A DNA stretch of 51,151 bases from a virus: IMG/VR virus record IMGVR_UViG_3300027822_000017, positions 1-51,151 of that record, one strand, 5' to 3'. Below the pieces are notes generated by a model. It saw only the letters and a list, made by a program, of their open reading frames with translations, made no database searches and was not told the DNA's origin. Each line of letters opens with the position of its first letter. The first letter of the stretch is position 1. Shown here piece by piece: positions 5,344-43,186 of this stretch. The translations under genes were made by a program, and so were the position numbers.

Positions 5344-7881
5344 ATGAGTGGGATTGTACTACAGAAAGTTGAGATAGATGGAAGAACAGTACAACTGTTC
5401 CAAGATGAGGCTAGCGGTAAGATTACTGGGTACAGTTTCTCACAGGATAGATACTACGATAACCCACTAGAAGATAATCTCCCTGAAGACTTTAAACCCA
5501 CTAAGATGGGAATGTCTGAAGAAGAGATGAAGGAGAAGGTTAGGGAGATATGGAACTATCCAACTGCTGACCTAGACGATGGCCTACTTAGAGCTGAAAC
5601 ACTAAAGCGATTTGGTATTAAGGTTGGCTTGAGTGAAGCAGATGGGGAGACACCTAATACTATCCACTTTCCGTACAGGAAGAAAGGTAAGATTATAGGT
5701 TATAAGTCTAAGCTAATTAGCCCTAAAAAGTTCTGGTCTGTTGGCCCTATCAAAGACTCTGAGTTGTTCGGATGGAAGGAAGCGGTCCTCAGTGGAAGTA
5801 ATAAGCTCTATATTACAGAAGGAGAATGCTTTGAACCTAGCTCTGAGGTATTAACAAGAAAGGGTTGGGTTCCATTAGATGAGTTTAAGGGGGAGGATGT
5901 ACTACAGGTATTAGAGGATGGAAGTAGTGAATTTGTAAAACCTATAGCTAAAGTAGTTAAAGAATACAGTGGTGATATGATTCACTATGAATCTGGAAGC
6001 TTCAAGTCCACAACTACGGAGGGACACAAGCTGGTACGTGTTGACAATGGTGGACTTACCAAGGTTAGCAGCACCTCACATATCCATCTACCTATACCTA
6101 GAGCTTCGCAGTTCTCTAAAGATGTGGATTGTGACTTAACAGATATTCAAATACAGACATTGGTTATGTTCTCAGCAGATTTTTCTCTGCGTGAAGGTGG
6201 AGATATCTATGGATGTTTCTCTAAGGAAAGAAAGATTGAGAGAGCTACTGAGTTACTTGATAGACTAGGTGTTAGATACTCTTCTAACTTGGAATCTAGT
6301 GGAATGACTAATTTCTATATACGTAGAGGACAAGGGGTATTATTCCAGAAAGAGTTTGACCAATCTCTCATATTGTCTATGAGTAGGAGACAACTTGTAT
6401 TATTTCAAAAGGAGTTGGTTCACTGGGATGGCAATAGTGTACCTAATAGAAATCAAGAAGAGTATTCTAGTAAGATATTAGGTAATGCTACTACTGTACA
6501 AACCGTGTGCCACCTGTTAGGTTTTACTTCCACAATTATTCGTAGGTCTAACGAGTTGGGTAGTTGGTTCAAAGTGAGTATGTTATACGGAAAGTCTACT
6601 TCATCAACTCAGAAAGGATACACTAGGAAGGAGTATAGCGGCACAGTAATGTGTGTAACTGTACCCTCCGGAATGATAATGGTTAGGCAGGATGAATCTA
6701 TCTCTGTTTCAGGAAACTGTGATACGGCAGCCACATATCAGATGTTGAAGGATAAGAATGCTGGAACTAAGTGGGAGGATATAGAACATGCTGTCATATC
6801 TGTACCTAATGGTGCTGGTGCTGCTAAGTCTGCTCTAATGAAGCAAGCGTCTACTATCAAGCGTAAGTTTGATGAGGTTGTACTCCTGTTTGATATGGAC
6901 GGACCTGGGCAGAAGGCTGCTATTGAAGTTGCGAAGGTGTTACCTAATGTCAAGATTGCAGACATGCCATTGAAGGATGCACGTGAATGTCTTATCAAAG
7001 GGAGGCAGAAGGCGTTCTGTAATTCAGTCATATTCAAAGCTGAGAAGCCAAAGAATACAAGGCTATTGTCTATAGACTCTTTGTTTAAGAAGGCGAGAGA
7101 GCCTATAGCGCATGGGTATTCATACCCCTGGCCTAGGACAACAGAGCTAACTAGGGGTATACACTTAGGTCAGACAATATACATAACAGCACCAGAGAAG
7201 GTAGGCAAGAGCGAGTTATTAAATGCTATAGCAGTACACTGCATGGAAGAACATAACTTAAAGTGCCTATTGATGAAACCTGAAGAGGACCCAGCACACA
7301 CCGTTAAGATGTTAGCAGGTAAGATAGCAGGTAAGTTTTTCAATGACCCAAATATCCCATTCGATTATGAGGCATATGATAAAGCTACCACTAAGTTAGC
7401 AGGTAAGGCTACTATATTGGATGTGTATCAAGACTTATCTTGGGATACTATGCAGGATGACATAAGGTATGCTGCTTCAGAGGGGACTAAGATTGTATTT
7501 GTTGACCCACTGACAGCAGCTACCACAGGACTGAGTGCATCTGATGCTAACACTAAGCTACAGGAAATAGCGCAAGGTCTTTCCACAATGTCTAAGGATT
7601 TAGGTATCACTATCTTTATCTTTACACATACAAGAAATCCTAAGAGTGGCCTAGCCTTCAATCGTGGTGGACATATCGAGGTAGGTGATATCACAGGAGG
7701 TAGGGCTATGGGACGTTCAGCTCATCAAGTGTTTGCCCTACAGTCTAACCAAGACCCTGAGCTTAGCGAGGACGAAAGAAACCTAAGAGAGTTGGTCCTA
7801 CTTGCTGATAGGAATATAGGTGCAATCGGTACTACCAACTTGTTTTGGGATAAGAACACATCCCTGTTTAATGAAGTTTAA
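5344..7881 (+). CDS. Primase-helicase (T7 gp4-like) containing an intein
   Basis: An 845-residue precursor, giving 548 residues after removal of the intein. The N-terminal extein and residues after 459 form a TOPRIM domain: the ITEGE glutamate is at 157-161, and LLFDMDGPG near residue 515 carries the DxD. There is no N-terminal zinc finger, so it resembles the short T7 4B form. The RecA-like helicase follows, with Walker A APEKVGKS near 614, Walker B IVFVDP near 717, THTRNP, and the C-terminal GGRAMGRSAHQ motif. It unwinds DNA at the fork 5' to 3'; priming without a zinc domain is uncertain. The intein splits the TOPRIM active site, so the unspliced protein should be inactive as a primase. 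Confidence 0.9.
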   Translation: MSGIVLQKVEIDGRTVQLFQDEASGKITGYSFSQDRYYDNPLEDNLPEDFKPTKMGMSEEEMKEKVREIWNYPTADLDDGLLRAETLKRFGIKVGLSEADGETPNTIHFPYRKKGKIIGYKSKLISPKKFWSVGPIKDSELFGWKEAVLSGSNKLYITEGECFEPSSEVLTRKGWVPLDEFKGEDVLQVLEDGSSEFVKPIAKVVKEYSGDMIHYESGSFKSTTTEGHKLVRVDNGGLTKVSSTSHIHLPIPRASQFSKDVDCDLTDIQIQTLVMFSADFSLREGGDIYGCFSKERKIERATELLDRLGVRYSSNLESSGMTNFYIRRGQGVLFQKEFDQSLILSMSRRQLVLFQKELVHWDGNSVPNRNQEEYSSKILGNATTVQTVCHLLGFTSTIIRRSNELGSWFKVSMLYGKSTSSTQKGYTRKEYSGTVMCVTVPSGMIMVRQDESISVSGNCDTAATYQMLKDKNAGTKWEDIEHAVISVPNGAGAAKSALMKQASTIKRKFDEVVLLFDMDGPGQKAAIEVAKVLPNVKIADMPLKDARECLIKGRQKAFCNSVIFKAEKPKNTRLLSIDSLFKKAREPIAHGYSYPWPRTTELTRGIHLGQTIYITAPEKVGKSELLNAIAVHCMEEHNLKCLLMKPEEDPAHTVKMLAGKIAGKFFNDPNIPFDYEAYDKATTKLAGKATILDVYQDLSWDTMQDDIRYAASEGTKIVFVDPLTAATTGLSASDANTKLQEIAQGLSTMSKDLGITIFIFTHTRNPKSGLAFNRGGHIEVGDITGGRAMGRSAHQVFALQSNQDPELSEDERNLRELVLLADRNIGAIGTTNLFWDKNTSLFNEV
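5827..6717 (+). mobile_element. Intein in the TOPRIM domain of the primase-helicase
   Basis: 297 residues (162-458 of the precursor). Block A is CFEPSSEVLTRKGWVPLDEF with the nucleophile C162. Block B is near STTTEGHKL, with the expected histidine. Block F/G is MCVTVPSGMIMVRQDESISV followed by SGN before extein C459. The penultimate residue is Gly instead of the usual His. The middle (about residues 280-400: MFSADFSLREGGDIYG, ATELLDRLGVRY, CHLLGF) looks like a decayed LAGLIDADG (DOD) homing nuclease. The insertion point, after ITEGE, is a hotspot at a catalytic residue. Confidence 0.9.
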
Positions 7882-39961: not shown

Positions 39962-42900
39962 CTAGGTATGTGAAATTGTAGCAACCATCTCAACTAAACC
40001 TTCTGGCTTAACAGTTTTGTAGCCAAATACCTGAAGGCCACGCATCAATTCACCAAAAGTATCAGGATTGGGTAGAGTCTCATTCTTCACAATCTGAGAG
40101 GCGAAAGCACAAGCACTAGGTACACCAGCGTAGACCATAGTCTCACCAGCAGCCAAGCCAGCAGCTACACCATTAGGCAGGTTGTTGGAAGTGTAGACAG
40201 TGAAACGGTCTATCATACCAATCTTGCCATTACGTACAACTGAAACACTATCACCAGTCTCATTTGCGAAACGTATCAAACTGTCTTTCAGGACAGCTGC
40301 ATAAGAAGCAGGGATGGCAACCCAACGGCCAGTTTCAGGAGCAGACTGCTCATCTAAAGTTTGTCCTAAACGTAGGATAGCTTCGACAGCATTAGCTTCT
40401 GTAACAGCTACAGGGGCAGCAGTAACTCCTAGGTTGATATTACCTGAAATTGCACCAGCTGTTGCACCATTATTAGCTGCATCAGAAGTACCTTGCATCA
40501 ACCCTAGTACAGCAGTATCAACAACTACCTTCAACTGCTCGGAAGCAGCGTCAGCGAAGATTGACATCAGGTTTAAATCTGCAATGACTAATATTAATAT
40601 TAATCATCGGACTATCACTTCCCCTTATCGGGGCTTACTTGTTTAGTCTCTGCAACTTGCTTGTGAAATTCTCGTATTTCAATTAGTTTTTCATATTTCT
40701 TTTCTAGGCACATATACTGTATTAGCTTTGGAATTAACTGAAGGGCTTTACTTTTATTACCCTTACCTAAAGGGAGTCTCCAAACAACCGTACCTCTATT
40801 GTTCGTATGTAAGCCACCTTTCCAGTCCGTTCTAATCTGTTCTAAGACTTTAACATCCATCTGATGTAATTCAATAACAAGAACAATCTCATTAATCTTA
40901 TACATCTTATGTTGCTTCTTAGACCAACGGTCTCTTCCAAATACAGCTCGGACATATCCATCTCCTGCAATTAATCCTGCAAGGTAAGCTGTACTAATAT
41001 GCTTTCTAAGTCGGGCCCTACCACAGGAACTTTCTCTGCTGACCTTTCTTAGAATGGAAAGAGCATCTTTGTTAATATCCTTCCAGTATTCATGTACGTC
41101 TATAAAATCTTGAAATATATGATGTTTGATATATAAGTGTTTTCCTATCCTATTAAACAGCATCTTACTATGTTTAGTAGAGAGTTCCCATATATATCTA
41201 TCAGTTCGGCTTTCATCTGTTTTCCTAAATCGGATAACACCTAAGTCATAGTAATCCCTCAAGGCTTTTAACATCTCACCTTTTGGGTCATTACTCTCTG
41301 ACTGGGAAATAGAACTAGACAGTACAACATAACTTCCACCACTAACTAAATCTCTATGCTGTAAATGGACATTACCATCTGCATCAAAAAGACCAGCAAG
41401 GAATTTGTTAAGTTGTTCACTGTGTTTACGAGATTGCTTTAGCTTACCGCTTAGCAATTTATACCCTAAATCATTGGTATTAAATTTCATATTAACCTTC
41501 TAATTGTGGTTATAGCATTGTTTCGGATTTTACTCCGTTATTTAAAGTAAGTTTTAAATCAGCCTAGTTCTTAATGAACTGTTAACTGATGAGCTTGTAC
41601 GTCATCTATTTGGAACTAGATGGATGACACATCTTGGACTATCACTTATCCTTTAGGACTTTAGATGTTTAGTCTCTGCGGCTCCCGTAATAACCATAAA
41701 TCGGTAAAGGGTTGCCTCGGATTTTACTCCGTTGTTTAATCTAATTTTACTGGAGCTTCTAGTGTAAACTCCATGCCTTAGCCTTGTCAATTGCCAGCTC
41801 AACCTTTGCAGAACCAGGATTGCTATATACTAATGGAGCACCAATAGTGTAATCGCTTACGCTAATTAGTGGCTCTGAACGAATGACGACATTGTCGCCA
41901 TAACTCTTAATCATACCTTCCATTACATGCAATATGCATGTGAAACGGACTATCGCTTATTCTTATTTCTACCAAAGTCGTAGTGTTTTCTACATAAACC
42001 TTTAGCATAAAGTGTGTCTCCACATATACTACATTTAGTAGGTTTCTGTATATCTTCTACTTCTTTAATCAAAGAACTCAATTCACTTAGTCTCTGCGGC
42101 TGAGCTTTTAGGTCGGATAGTATCTTTTTGATGTTCTTTCCATCGCGGAAATGTTTCATCTTAGAACAACCTAATACGAAATAAGTCTGGTCAGCTTTAA
42201 TAATAGAATGCTTTGCATAATATCCTAAAACCTTCTCAGCCTTACTAGCTGGTATGTTTATTCTCCATCTCTTTAGAGTATTATTTTTCATGGGATTTAT
42301 CTTACCACCAAAAAACTGTTGGAGTGTTTCAATACCTTCGCTATCAAAAGAGCTACAAGTAATCTGTAAAGTGATACTTGCATTAGTTCTATTTCCTTTC
42401 TCCCATACAGAGGCGACTAATGTTCCGTCAGCGTCTACGTACCCTGCCATCCAACCTCGTGTGGGATGTTTCGGTACGGGAAGAGATTTAATAGTACGCT
42501 GTTCTTTCATATACTCACGCATCTCAGTCTTATTTTCATAAGTCTGCCCATGCATCTCTAAAAGAACTTCAGCATATCTTCTTTTTAATACCAAGTATTG
42601 CTTAACACGCGATAACAACTTAACCGCATCCTTACCTGTAATAGTGAGATTAGTTGTATTATGACCTTTTCTGTAGTAGATGTAACCACCATACTGACTT
42701 TGGATTCTTAATAAAACTTCATCTCTTCTAGTAAGTTGTGTAAACTTAACTTGAATATTTGCTCTTCTTTTCTCAGGATTACTTCGGTCTCTCGTTGGAT
42801 ATTGCCACTGCAAAGTGATACATCCATCTCCGTCCAAGAATCCTGCTATATATTTGTCACCAAGTGTTTTCGCCATTGCGTGTTCCTTAGTTGTATTACT

Positions 42901-43186
42901 CTTGCCTCGGGTCAGTTTCCCTTCCCGTTATTCAGAATTGATTTATTAACGACTACAAAAATATAATATAGTCGGTTGAAGTAATTGCTGCCGATTCATA
43001 TAACGGATGCGTTATACCAGCGCTCGCTCTATCAATTACTTCGGATTATAGTTGACCGAGCTACTTAATCAACTTGCCCGCCCAAATTTCTGGGATGTAT
43101 CCAAAGCTACCATCACTCTGATAAGTGGCACCAGCATATGGAGTTTGACCGTCCCAAGACGGATTTGATTGTGTAATACCAGCCAT
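39962..43186 (-). CDS. Major capsid protein, four exons and three group I introns
   Basis: HK97-fold capsid protein with exons 43186-42968, 41920-41768, 41615-41585 and 40587-39962 (stop at 39962-39964). The joins give GACTAT|GAAGG (TDY|EG), TGGAGT|TTCCAA (AWS|FQ) and CATCAGT|TCATTG (HQ|FIADL), restoring one frame through SYGDNVVIR, IDDVQAHQ and SIFADAASEQ, typical T7-group capsid blocks. The start MAGITQSNPSWDG has AAGGAG 6 bases upstream. Total about 342 codons less any bypassed part, close to T7 gp10A (345). Exon 1 contains in-frame TAG (43061-43063) and TAA (43046-43048) after GKLIK, so either bypass, a further mini-intron or error must be invoked. AITSTDY after the gap is clearly capsid. 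Confidence 0.85.
40588..41584 (-). mobile_element. Group I intron 3 in the capsid gene
   Basis: 997 nt. The 5' splice site follows CATCAGU, and AUCAGU pairs with internal guide GCUGAU, giving a 6-bp P1 with the U.G wobble at the cut. The intron ends in G (AATATTAG) before TCATTG. The conserved AACGGAGTAAAATCCG segment follows P1. The P7 strands are GCAGAGACTAAAC and GATAGTCC, the latter near 40610-40617. It carries a LAGLIDADG gene in the P6-P8 region. Confidence 0.93.
40615..41490 (-). CDS. LAGLIDADG homing endonuclease of intron 3
   Basis: A 291-residue double-motif protein: FLAGLFDADGNVHL near residues 30-43 and YLAGLIAGDGYVRA near 165-180. The second acidic residue (D of GDG) is kept. 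It would cut the intronless capsid allele to spread the intron. Its last codons (VAETKQ...) are read from the P7/P8 bases of the ribozyme, and the stop TGA overlaps P7 3'. It lies wholly inside the intron and has its own start at 41490 after GAAGGTTAAT. Confidence 0.9.
   Translation of the reverse strand: MKFNTNDLGYKLLSGKLKQSRKHSEQLNKFLAGLFDADGNVHLQHRDLVSGGSYVVLSSSISQSESNDPKGEMLKALRDYYDLGVIRFRKTDESRTDRYIWELSTKHSKMLFNRIGKHLYIKHHIFQDFIDVHEYWKDINKDALSILRKVSRESSCGRARLRKHISTAYLAGLIAGDGYVRAVFGRDRWSKKQHKMYKINEIVLVIELHQMDVKVLEQIRTDWKGGLHTNNRGTVVWRLPLGKGNKSKALQLIPKLIQYMCLEKKYEKLIEIREFHKQVAETKQVSPDKGK
41585..41615 (-). other. 31-nt micro-exon of the capsid gene
   Basis: TTCCAAATAGATGACGTACA then AGCTCATCAGT encodes FQIDDVQAHQ plus one base of the next codon. 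Both edges are fixed by the intron rules (preceded by G, ends in U) and by the conserved capsid motif IDDVQAHQ. It is flanked by introns on both sides. Confidence 0.9.
41616..41767 (-). mobile_element. Group I intron 2, a 152-nt minimal intron
   Basis: The 5' site follows GGAGU; GGAGU pairs with GCUCC (U.G at the cut), and the intron ends CATCTAG. GAA just before the guide can pair with UUC at the start of the next exon (P10). P3 is TTAGAT/ATCTAA, P8 is TCC-TAAA-GGA, and P7 is GACTA/TAGTC in GCCGCAGAGACTAAACA and GTGATAGTCC. No open frame. The core bases are nearly the same as in introns 1 and 3, so they share an origin. Confidence 0.92.
41921..42967 (-). mobile_element. Group I intron 1 in the capsid gene
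   Basis: 1047 nt. GACUAU pairs with guide GUAGUC (6 bp, U.G at the cut). The intron ends in ATG's G before GAAGGT. The core has GCCGCAGAGACTAAGTG (42084-42100) and GATAGTCC (41947-41954) as the P7 strands. It contains the endonuclease gene 41950-42876. Confidence 0.93.
41950..42876 (-). CDS. LAGLIDADG homing endonuclease of intron 1, with zinc finger
   Basis: A 308-residue protein with two motifs: YIAGFLDGDGCITL (residues about 9-22) and WMAGYVDADGTLVA (about 135-148). The C-terminal CSICGDTLYAKGLCRKHY is a Cys3His-type zinc knuckle, often found on phage homing proteins. The stop codon TAG is part of the P7 3' strand GATAGTCC, so the gene runs through the whole catalytic core. It lies within intron 1 and is probably translated from unspliced RNA. 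Confidence 0.9.
   Translation of the reverse strand: MAKTLGDKYIAGFLDGDGCITLQWQYPTRDRSNPEKRRANIQVKFTQLTRRDEVLLRIQSQYGGYIYYRKGHNTTNLTITGKDAVKLLSRVKQYLVLKRRYAEVLLEMHGQTYENKTEMREYMKEQRTIKSLPVPKHPTRGWMAGYVDADGTLVASVWEKGNRTNASITLQITCSSFDSEGIETLQQFFGGKINPMKNNTLKRWRINIPASKAEKVLGYYAKHSIIKADQTYFVLGCSKMKHFRDGKNIKKILSDLKAQPQRLSELSSLIKEVEDIQKPTKCSICGDTLYAKGLCRKHYDFGRNKNKR
42978..43066 (-). other. Stop-containing hairpin element inside capsid exon 1
   Basis: After AAG TTG ATT come AAG TAG ... TAA. GAAGTAATTG (43042-43033) and CAATTACTTC (42987-42978) form a perfect 10-bp stem, and TATAACG-CATC-CGTTATA (43016-42999) is nested within it. Another stem, AGTTGA/TCAACT, surrounds the first stop. In-frame ATT codons occur at 43067-43069, 43034-43036 and 42983-42985. 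The frame is open again from GAT or TTA through GACTAT. Confidence 0.7.

Follow-up and report, generated by a model that had tools for sequence, protein, structure and literature searches.

The capsid locus

The window, by which we mean the whole 51,151-base stretch of one IMG/VR record from an uncultured phage, carries a major capsid protein (MCP) gene on the minus strand between positions 43186 and 39962. The gene is in pieces, and its parts are as follows, in the direction of transcription:

43068..43186, minus strand: MCP exon 1a, MAGITQ...EIWAGKLI (spliced alignment; homologue L005)
43027..43067, minus strand: 41-nt coreless intron-like element, site 40 (comparison with L005, spliced alignment, P1/P10 signals)
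42999..43026, minus strand: MCP exon 1b, last base of the Ile codon plus ERWYNASVI (protein identical in L005)
42992..42998, minus strand: 7-nt insert TGAATCG, with a TGA stop (comparison with L005)
42968..42991, minus strand: MCP exon 1c, AAITSTDY (comparison with L005)
41921..42967, minus strand: group I intron 1, 1047 nt, between Y57 and E58 (P1, P3, P7, P8, P10, last base G)
41950..42876, minus strand: LAGLIDADG homing endonuclease ORF, 308 aa, in intron 1 (Pfam LAGLIDADG_1, 4.9e-17)
41768..41920, minus strand: MCP exon 2, 153 nt (spliced alignment)
41616..41767, minus strand: group I intron 2, 152 nt, no ORF (spliced frame, core, P1)
41585..41615, minus strand: MCP exon 3, 31 nt (spliced alignment)
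40582..41584, minus strand: group I intron 3, 1003 nt (spliced frame, core, P1)
40615..41490, minus strand: LAGLIDADG homing endonuclease ORF, 291 aa, in intron 3 (Pfam LAGLIDADG_1, 4.2e-13)
39962..40581, minus strand: MCP exon 4, 620 nt (PHROG 267 major head protein, 8.9e-35)

The open reading frame of exon 4 (40567-39962) accounts for the PHROG 267 match at 8.9e-35, which begins only at profile position 131; the N-terminal part of the protein is thus absent from this ORF. Exon 4 alone scores 121.6 bits, compared with 200.9 bits (7.4e-59) for the joined protein, which matches over residues 24-321, or nearly its full length. The original prediction spoke of a T7-like capsid. This is a loose description: the best-matching family is PHROG 267 (major head protein), and among named phages the closest is Rhizobium phage RHph_TM3_14A.

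Splice signals and catalytic core of the three introns

The exon joins were fixed by comparison with uninterrupted homologues, namely the capsid protein of RHph_TM3_14A and three intact, intronless relatives (L005, L006 and L007). The joined protein reads ...TSTDY/EGMIKS... across intron 1, ...AKAWS/FQIDD... across intron 2 and ...AHQ(S)DLNLM... across intron 3. The proposal that three introns split the capsid gene is borne out by these joins, and our coordinates agree with those first given, on the minus strand. The predicted P1 helices are also present, each with a terminal U.G pair: GACUAU/GUAGUC in intron 1, which can be extended to CGACUAU/GUAGUCG, GGAGU/GCUCC in intron 2 and AUCAGU/GCUGAU in intron 3. 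By our count, P1 has 7, 6 and 6 bp in introns 1, 2 and 3, respectively. All three introns end in G, as had been noted (the last three bases are AUG, UAG and UUG). The P10 pairing between the guide and the 3' exon is uneven, with 11 bp in intron 1 (many of them G.U), only 3 bp in intron 2 and only 1 bp in intron 3, and we counted the short P10 helices of introns 2 and 3 against our best explanation of the locus.

A core element, GCAGAGACTAA, occurs three times in the window without mismatch, once in each intron and more often than expected by chance. Each copy is followed by GATAGTCC at the position expected for P7', and P3, P4, P7 and P8 can be recognised by eye in every intron. Over 22 introns of this class, P3 keeps six to seven pairs while using nearly every base combination. 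Among the 21 distinct introns, 95% of the P3 cells are paired and all seven pairs show changes on both sides, whereas P7 is 100% paired and near-invariant. The covariation score of P3 is 0.730, against a mean of 0.167 for shuffled controls, none of which (0/500) scored as high, and sliding the helix by one column destroys the pairing.

The Rfam group I model gave no match in the window at its gathering score, and none in the capsid region up to E = 10. The original prediction had named such a miss as evidence against itself. As a control we ran the same library on nine related loci, where it recovered no more than two introns, at site 57 of L088 and L108. These two belong to another type; every related intron of the present class in L085, L087, L088, L108 and L121 was missed. 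The miss therefore reflects the model. It is also the one point in favour of some insertion other than group I, which we consider barely credible given the covarying P3, the near-invariant P7, the U.G pair in P1, the final G and the LAGLIDADG ORFs inside. With the P3-P7 covariation over 22 introns and the intronless homologues in hand, comparative sequence analysis establishes introns 1-3 as group I introns of one compact class, with exact splice sites in the major capsid gene as proposed. Because the standard Rfam model misses this class, capsid genes of this kind are liable to be reported as absent or damaged when viral metagenomes are annotated automatically.

From their class, we infer that introns 1-3 are self-splicing. 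The capsid message would be transcribed with its introns, each of which would fold into a P3-P9 core; guanosine would attack at the U.G pair of P1, and the freed exon would join the 3' exon aligned by P10. With P1 and P10 as guides, introns 1-3 would remove themselves in the usual pair of transesterifications. A capsid protein is needed in hundreds of copies per particle, and each copy would depend on three ribozymes acting on one message.

Both endonuclease ORFs contain two stretches that match PF00961 above the cut-off, and both run at their 3' ends through the P7-P8 strands of the host intron, with the stop codon in or next to P7'. In intron 1, the overlap covers P7 and P8 strands and the stop lies inside P7'; in intron 3, the 3' end of the ORF likewise overlaps the core. 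These endonucleases presumably spread their introns, while intron 2 would be a bare 152-nt ribozyme. The intron 3 endonuclease is 31-38% identical to intron ORFs of relatives. The intron 1 endonuclease shows weak similarity (33%) to a segment inside annotated DNA methylase genes of Gordonia phages Getalong and Whitney, and that segment may be related to insertion elements that PMC11855218 describes.

Introns in related capsid genes

Single-sequence searches of viral contigs with either endonuclease found no relatives, and a search of genome contigs found only one weak relative. Relatives were instead found through the P4 string common to introns 2 and 3, which retrieved 14 contigs from IMG/VR. 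In most of these, the same capsid family is interrupted by the same kind of intron. A profile of the intron 3 endonuclease, built from the ORFs of these contigs, then found 76 loci, at least 36 of which adjoin the present capsid family (some of the loci are near-identical contigs).

We mapped the introns of the relatives by a purpose-written spliced protein-to-DNA alignment, using the numbering of the present capsid. Introns were located at sites 33, 40/41, 42, 43, 54, 55, 57, 61, 67, 70, 105, 196, 209, 227, 243 and 297. The present sites, 58, 109 and 119, were not seen in the mapped relatives and bring the total to 19 mapped sites in the capsid gene. Judged by these sequences, this phage group has a recurrent intron hotspot, or landing zone, in its capsid gene; the scatter of sites would be accounted for by homing into capsid genes that lack introns. 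The statement that three introns in one capsid gene are unusual needs qualifying accordingly: two relatives have four introns and two others have three.

Introns in this capsid family can be as small as 118, 121, 138 and 152 nt, and one exon is only 13 nt long. This exon lies between two group I introns (L085 7145-7133, and the same in L087) and is almost wholly used by P10 of the first intron (6 bp) and P1 of the second.

Two departures from the usual splice-site bases were seen among the relatives. In the site-42 introns of L088, L108 (3417) and L121 (3236), an A-U pair takes the place of U.G at the 5' splice site, in the P1 helices GAAGAA^/UUCUUC (L088, by eye), AAGGAA^/UUCCUU (L108) and UUAGGAA^/UUCCUAA (L121). 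A complete site-40 intron (L085 7482-7313, also in L091, L092 and L095) has A rather than G as its last base, judging by P10 and the reading frame. In relatives, the alignment also called introns of only 27-54 nt (residues 151, 176 and 260-262); we took these as most likely to be coding indels in variable loops and left them out of the count, along with a 213-nt candidate in L152 that lacks group I signals.

Two small inserts break the capsid frame

The original prediction held that the three joins restore a continuous capsid protein. They do not. If only the three introns are removed, the frame from the ATG reads ...EIWAGKLIK, stop, LGQL, stop, SEVIDRASAGITHPLYESAAITSTDY and then, across the intron 1 join, EG..., with two stops in exon 1. 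Compared with the intact L005, there are 41 extra nucleotides after KLI and 7 extra nucleotides after ERWYNASVI, the second insert lying 28 nt downstream of the first. The nine codons between the inserts encode exactly the residues of L005, with several synonymous differences. An intact 324-residue protein is obtained only when the 41 nt and the 7 nt are also removed. The coordinates first given span both inserts, but neither was reported. The spliced alignment called two false introns around the 7-nt insert, and the boundaries there were taken from the comparison with homologues.

The 41-nt element has the ends of a group I intron. In the register given by the spliced alignment, GUUGAU^UAAGUAGCUCGGUCAACU...AUAGAG^CGAGCGC, the 5' exon ends in U, P1 has 7 bp with the U.G pair (U^UAAGUAGCUCG[GUCAACU]...AUAGAG^C), P10 is a flush Watson-Crick helix of 5 bp, and the last base is G. 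An earlier register, ATT^...C^GAG, with C as the last base, was replaced by GAT^...G^CGAG, which has all the canonical signals. When unspliced, the element brings TAG and TAA into frame. Only 106 of 300,000 random 41-mers from the window (about 1e-4) had a P1 of at least 7 bp with U.G together with a P10 of at least 5 bp, and 27 of these also had the final G. Complete introns occupy the same site, site 40, in L085, L090/L104 and L093, and 13 of the last 15 nt of the element agree with the end of the L104 intron there; 12 of 200,000 random 15-mers reached 12 matches or more.

The catalytic core, P3-P7, is absent from the element, and the conserved core strings occur in the window only in introns 1-3. 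Because of the missing core, we did not file the element as a complete group I intron. A 10-bp helix can form between its middle and the exon downstream (GAAGUAAUUG/CAAUUACUUC). The exact 24-nt middle was not found in viral contigs, and a copy from elsewhere in the window was rejected, the longest exact match being 12 nt.

A third small insert lies in the large terminase gene (49594-48141, minus strand), where 5 extra nucleotides (TAGGT, 49363-49359) shift the frame. The N-terminal piece (49594-49361) ends in SGHG and the C-terminal piece resumes with IGKS, so that the insert falls exactly within the Walker A motif; homologues are continuous between SGHG and IGKS. Introns and inteins are well known to land in Walker A of the large terminase. 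Two genes of this record therefore carry small, unreadable inserts at homing-type sites.

We favour collapse of an intron during assembly, or a real deletion, over a functional role for the 41-nt and 7-nt inserts. Most likely, the 41 nt are what is left of a fourth intron, with both ends and no core, and the two inserts together represent intron sequence collapsed or deleted by assembly or mutation. The deposited sequence would then not give a full capsid protein. We give about an even chance to all three inserts, including the one in the terminase gene, being assembly artefacts in which a full intron, carried by some or all members of the population, was collapsed to its ends. The 41 nt have the correct 5' and 3' ends of a site-40 intron and nothing of its core, and a lytic-looking phage needs both capsid and terminase, yet both genes are frameshifted by small inserts. 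Against this, assemblers rarely invent junction sequence, and the inserts contain no N. If the inserts are indeed artefacts, the real capsid gene would have four or more introns.

A real origin of the inserts is somewhat less probable than an artefact. The site-40 intron could have lost its core by deletion, or failed homing could have left scars, and the genome would be defective. The same signature of site-40 intron ends speaks for this account, and the endonucleases of the locus would presumably cut near such sites. However, an otherwise intact-looking genome would then have been hit twice in its capsid gene and once in its terminase gene, and a defective genome should not dominate an assembly.

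Could the 41 nt instead be excised from the RNA, the P1-P10 duplex being accommodated either by a neighbouring intron's core or by a minimal one belonging to the element itself? P1, P10 and the final G would fit, as would the 10-bp pairing of the middle with the downstream exon, a layout also found in the Phialophora introns (PMC3160393). On the other hand, no P3 or P7 can be recognised, and even after excision the 7-nt insert, for which we found no convincing splice guide, still gives TGA after ATA. We regard excision as very improbable. The specific form of this idea, in which the element is a living coreless group I intron spliced by the core of a same-class neighbour in the same transcript, strikes us as very improbable too; if true, the element would be smaller than any group I intron that we found described and would work with a borrowed ribozyme.

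The region might also be bypassed, either by a ribosome hop from ATT to ATT or by an alternative 5' splice site of intron 1 joining KLI to EGM. Both routes leave an open frame, the inserts adding up to 48 nt, a multiple of 3. However, both leave out the conserved ERWYNASVI, the resulting proteins match the capsid family less well (177.6 and 172 bits, compared with 200.9 bits), and the P10 guide fits the ERW exon rather than EGM. We rejected both on the family fit and the P10 guide, and a bypass of any kind appears very unlikely.

The lack of an Rfam match and the frame broken by the two inserts count against our best explanation of the locus. We nevertheless consider it very probable that this is a hotspot capsid gene containing three self-splicing, mobile-type group I introns, a collapsed or deleted site-40 intron and a 7-nt insert.

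Comparison with known systems

Introns in phage capsid genes have been described before. The major capsid gene of mycobacteriophage LittleE contains a group I intron, the splicing of which was demonstrated by RT-PCR and protein sequencing, and a capsid-gene intron is also known from lactococcal phage Tuc2009 (PMC3706429). LittleE resembles the present case in that its major capsid gene holds a group I-type intron with a LAGLIDADG-like ORF; it differs in having a single intron, in having the ORF on the opposite strand and in belonging to another phage group, whereas the present gene has three introns and its relatives up to four (PMC3706429).

Several introns in one phage gene are not new either. 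As cited in PMC3073962 and PMC11878797, Landthaler and Shub (1999) described a gene of Staphylococcus phage Twort with three group I introns and exon skipping; going by those citations, the gene and the host are different, and here two of the three introns carry LAGLIDADG ORFs. Polymerase and terminase genes with two or three introns are known from the Bastillevirinae (PMC11878797). The Jug phages have about 18.5 group I introns per genome, with a mean length of about 206 nt, and their splicing was seen in metatranscriptomes (PMC12363816). They share with the present phages an intron-dense genome and small group I ribozymes, but are huge gut phages with terL and nrdD as named targets, whereas here the density is found within one capsid gene (PMC12363816).

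The closest parallel to the 41-nt element is provided by fungal group I introns of 63-75 nt from Phialophora, which have P7 and one of which was shown to splice (PMC3160393). Like the element, they have P1, P10 and a pairing between the middle of the intron and the 3' exon, and lack most of the core. The element differs from them in its smaller size, in its final G (theirs is U) and in lacking a clear P7 (PMC3160393).

Our literature search found no account of multi-intron capsid genes in the present family, which is weak evidence of absence. What was new to us is the concentration of introns in one capsid family, together with their sizes; capsid introns and phage genes with three introns were already known. 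The three-intron capsid gene is a solid and useful case; it would point to a new principle only if the 41-nt element were shown to be spliced.

Finally, the window contains a primase-helicase ORF (5344-7881, plus strand). No intein domain was matched in it with Pfam or NCBIfam; by eye, it appears to contain an intein at approximately residues 160-465, with the boundaries TEGE/CFEPSSEVLTRKGW...SVSGN/CDTAATY.
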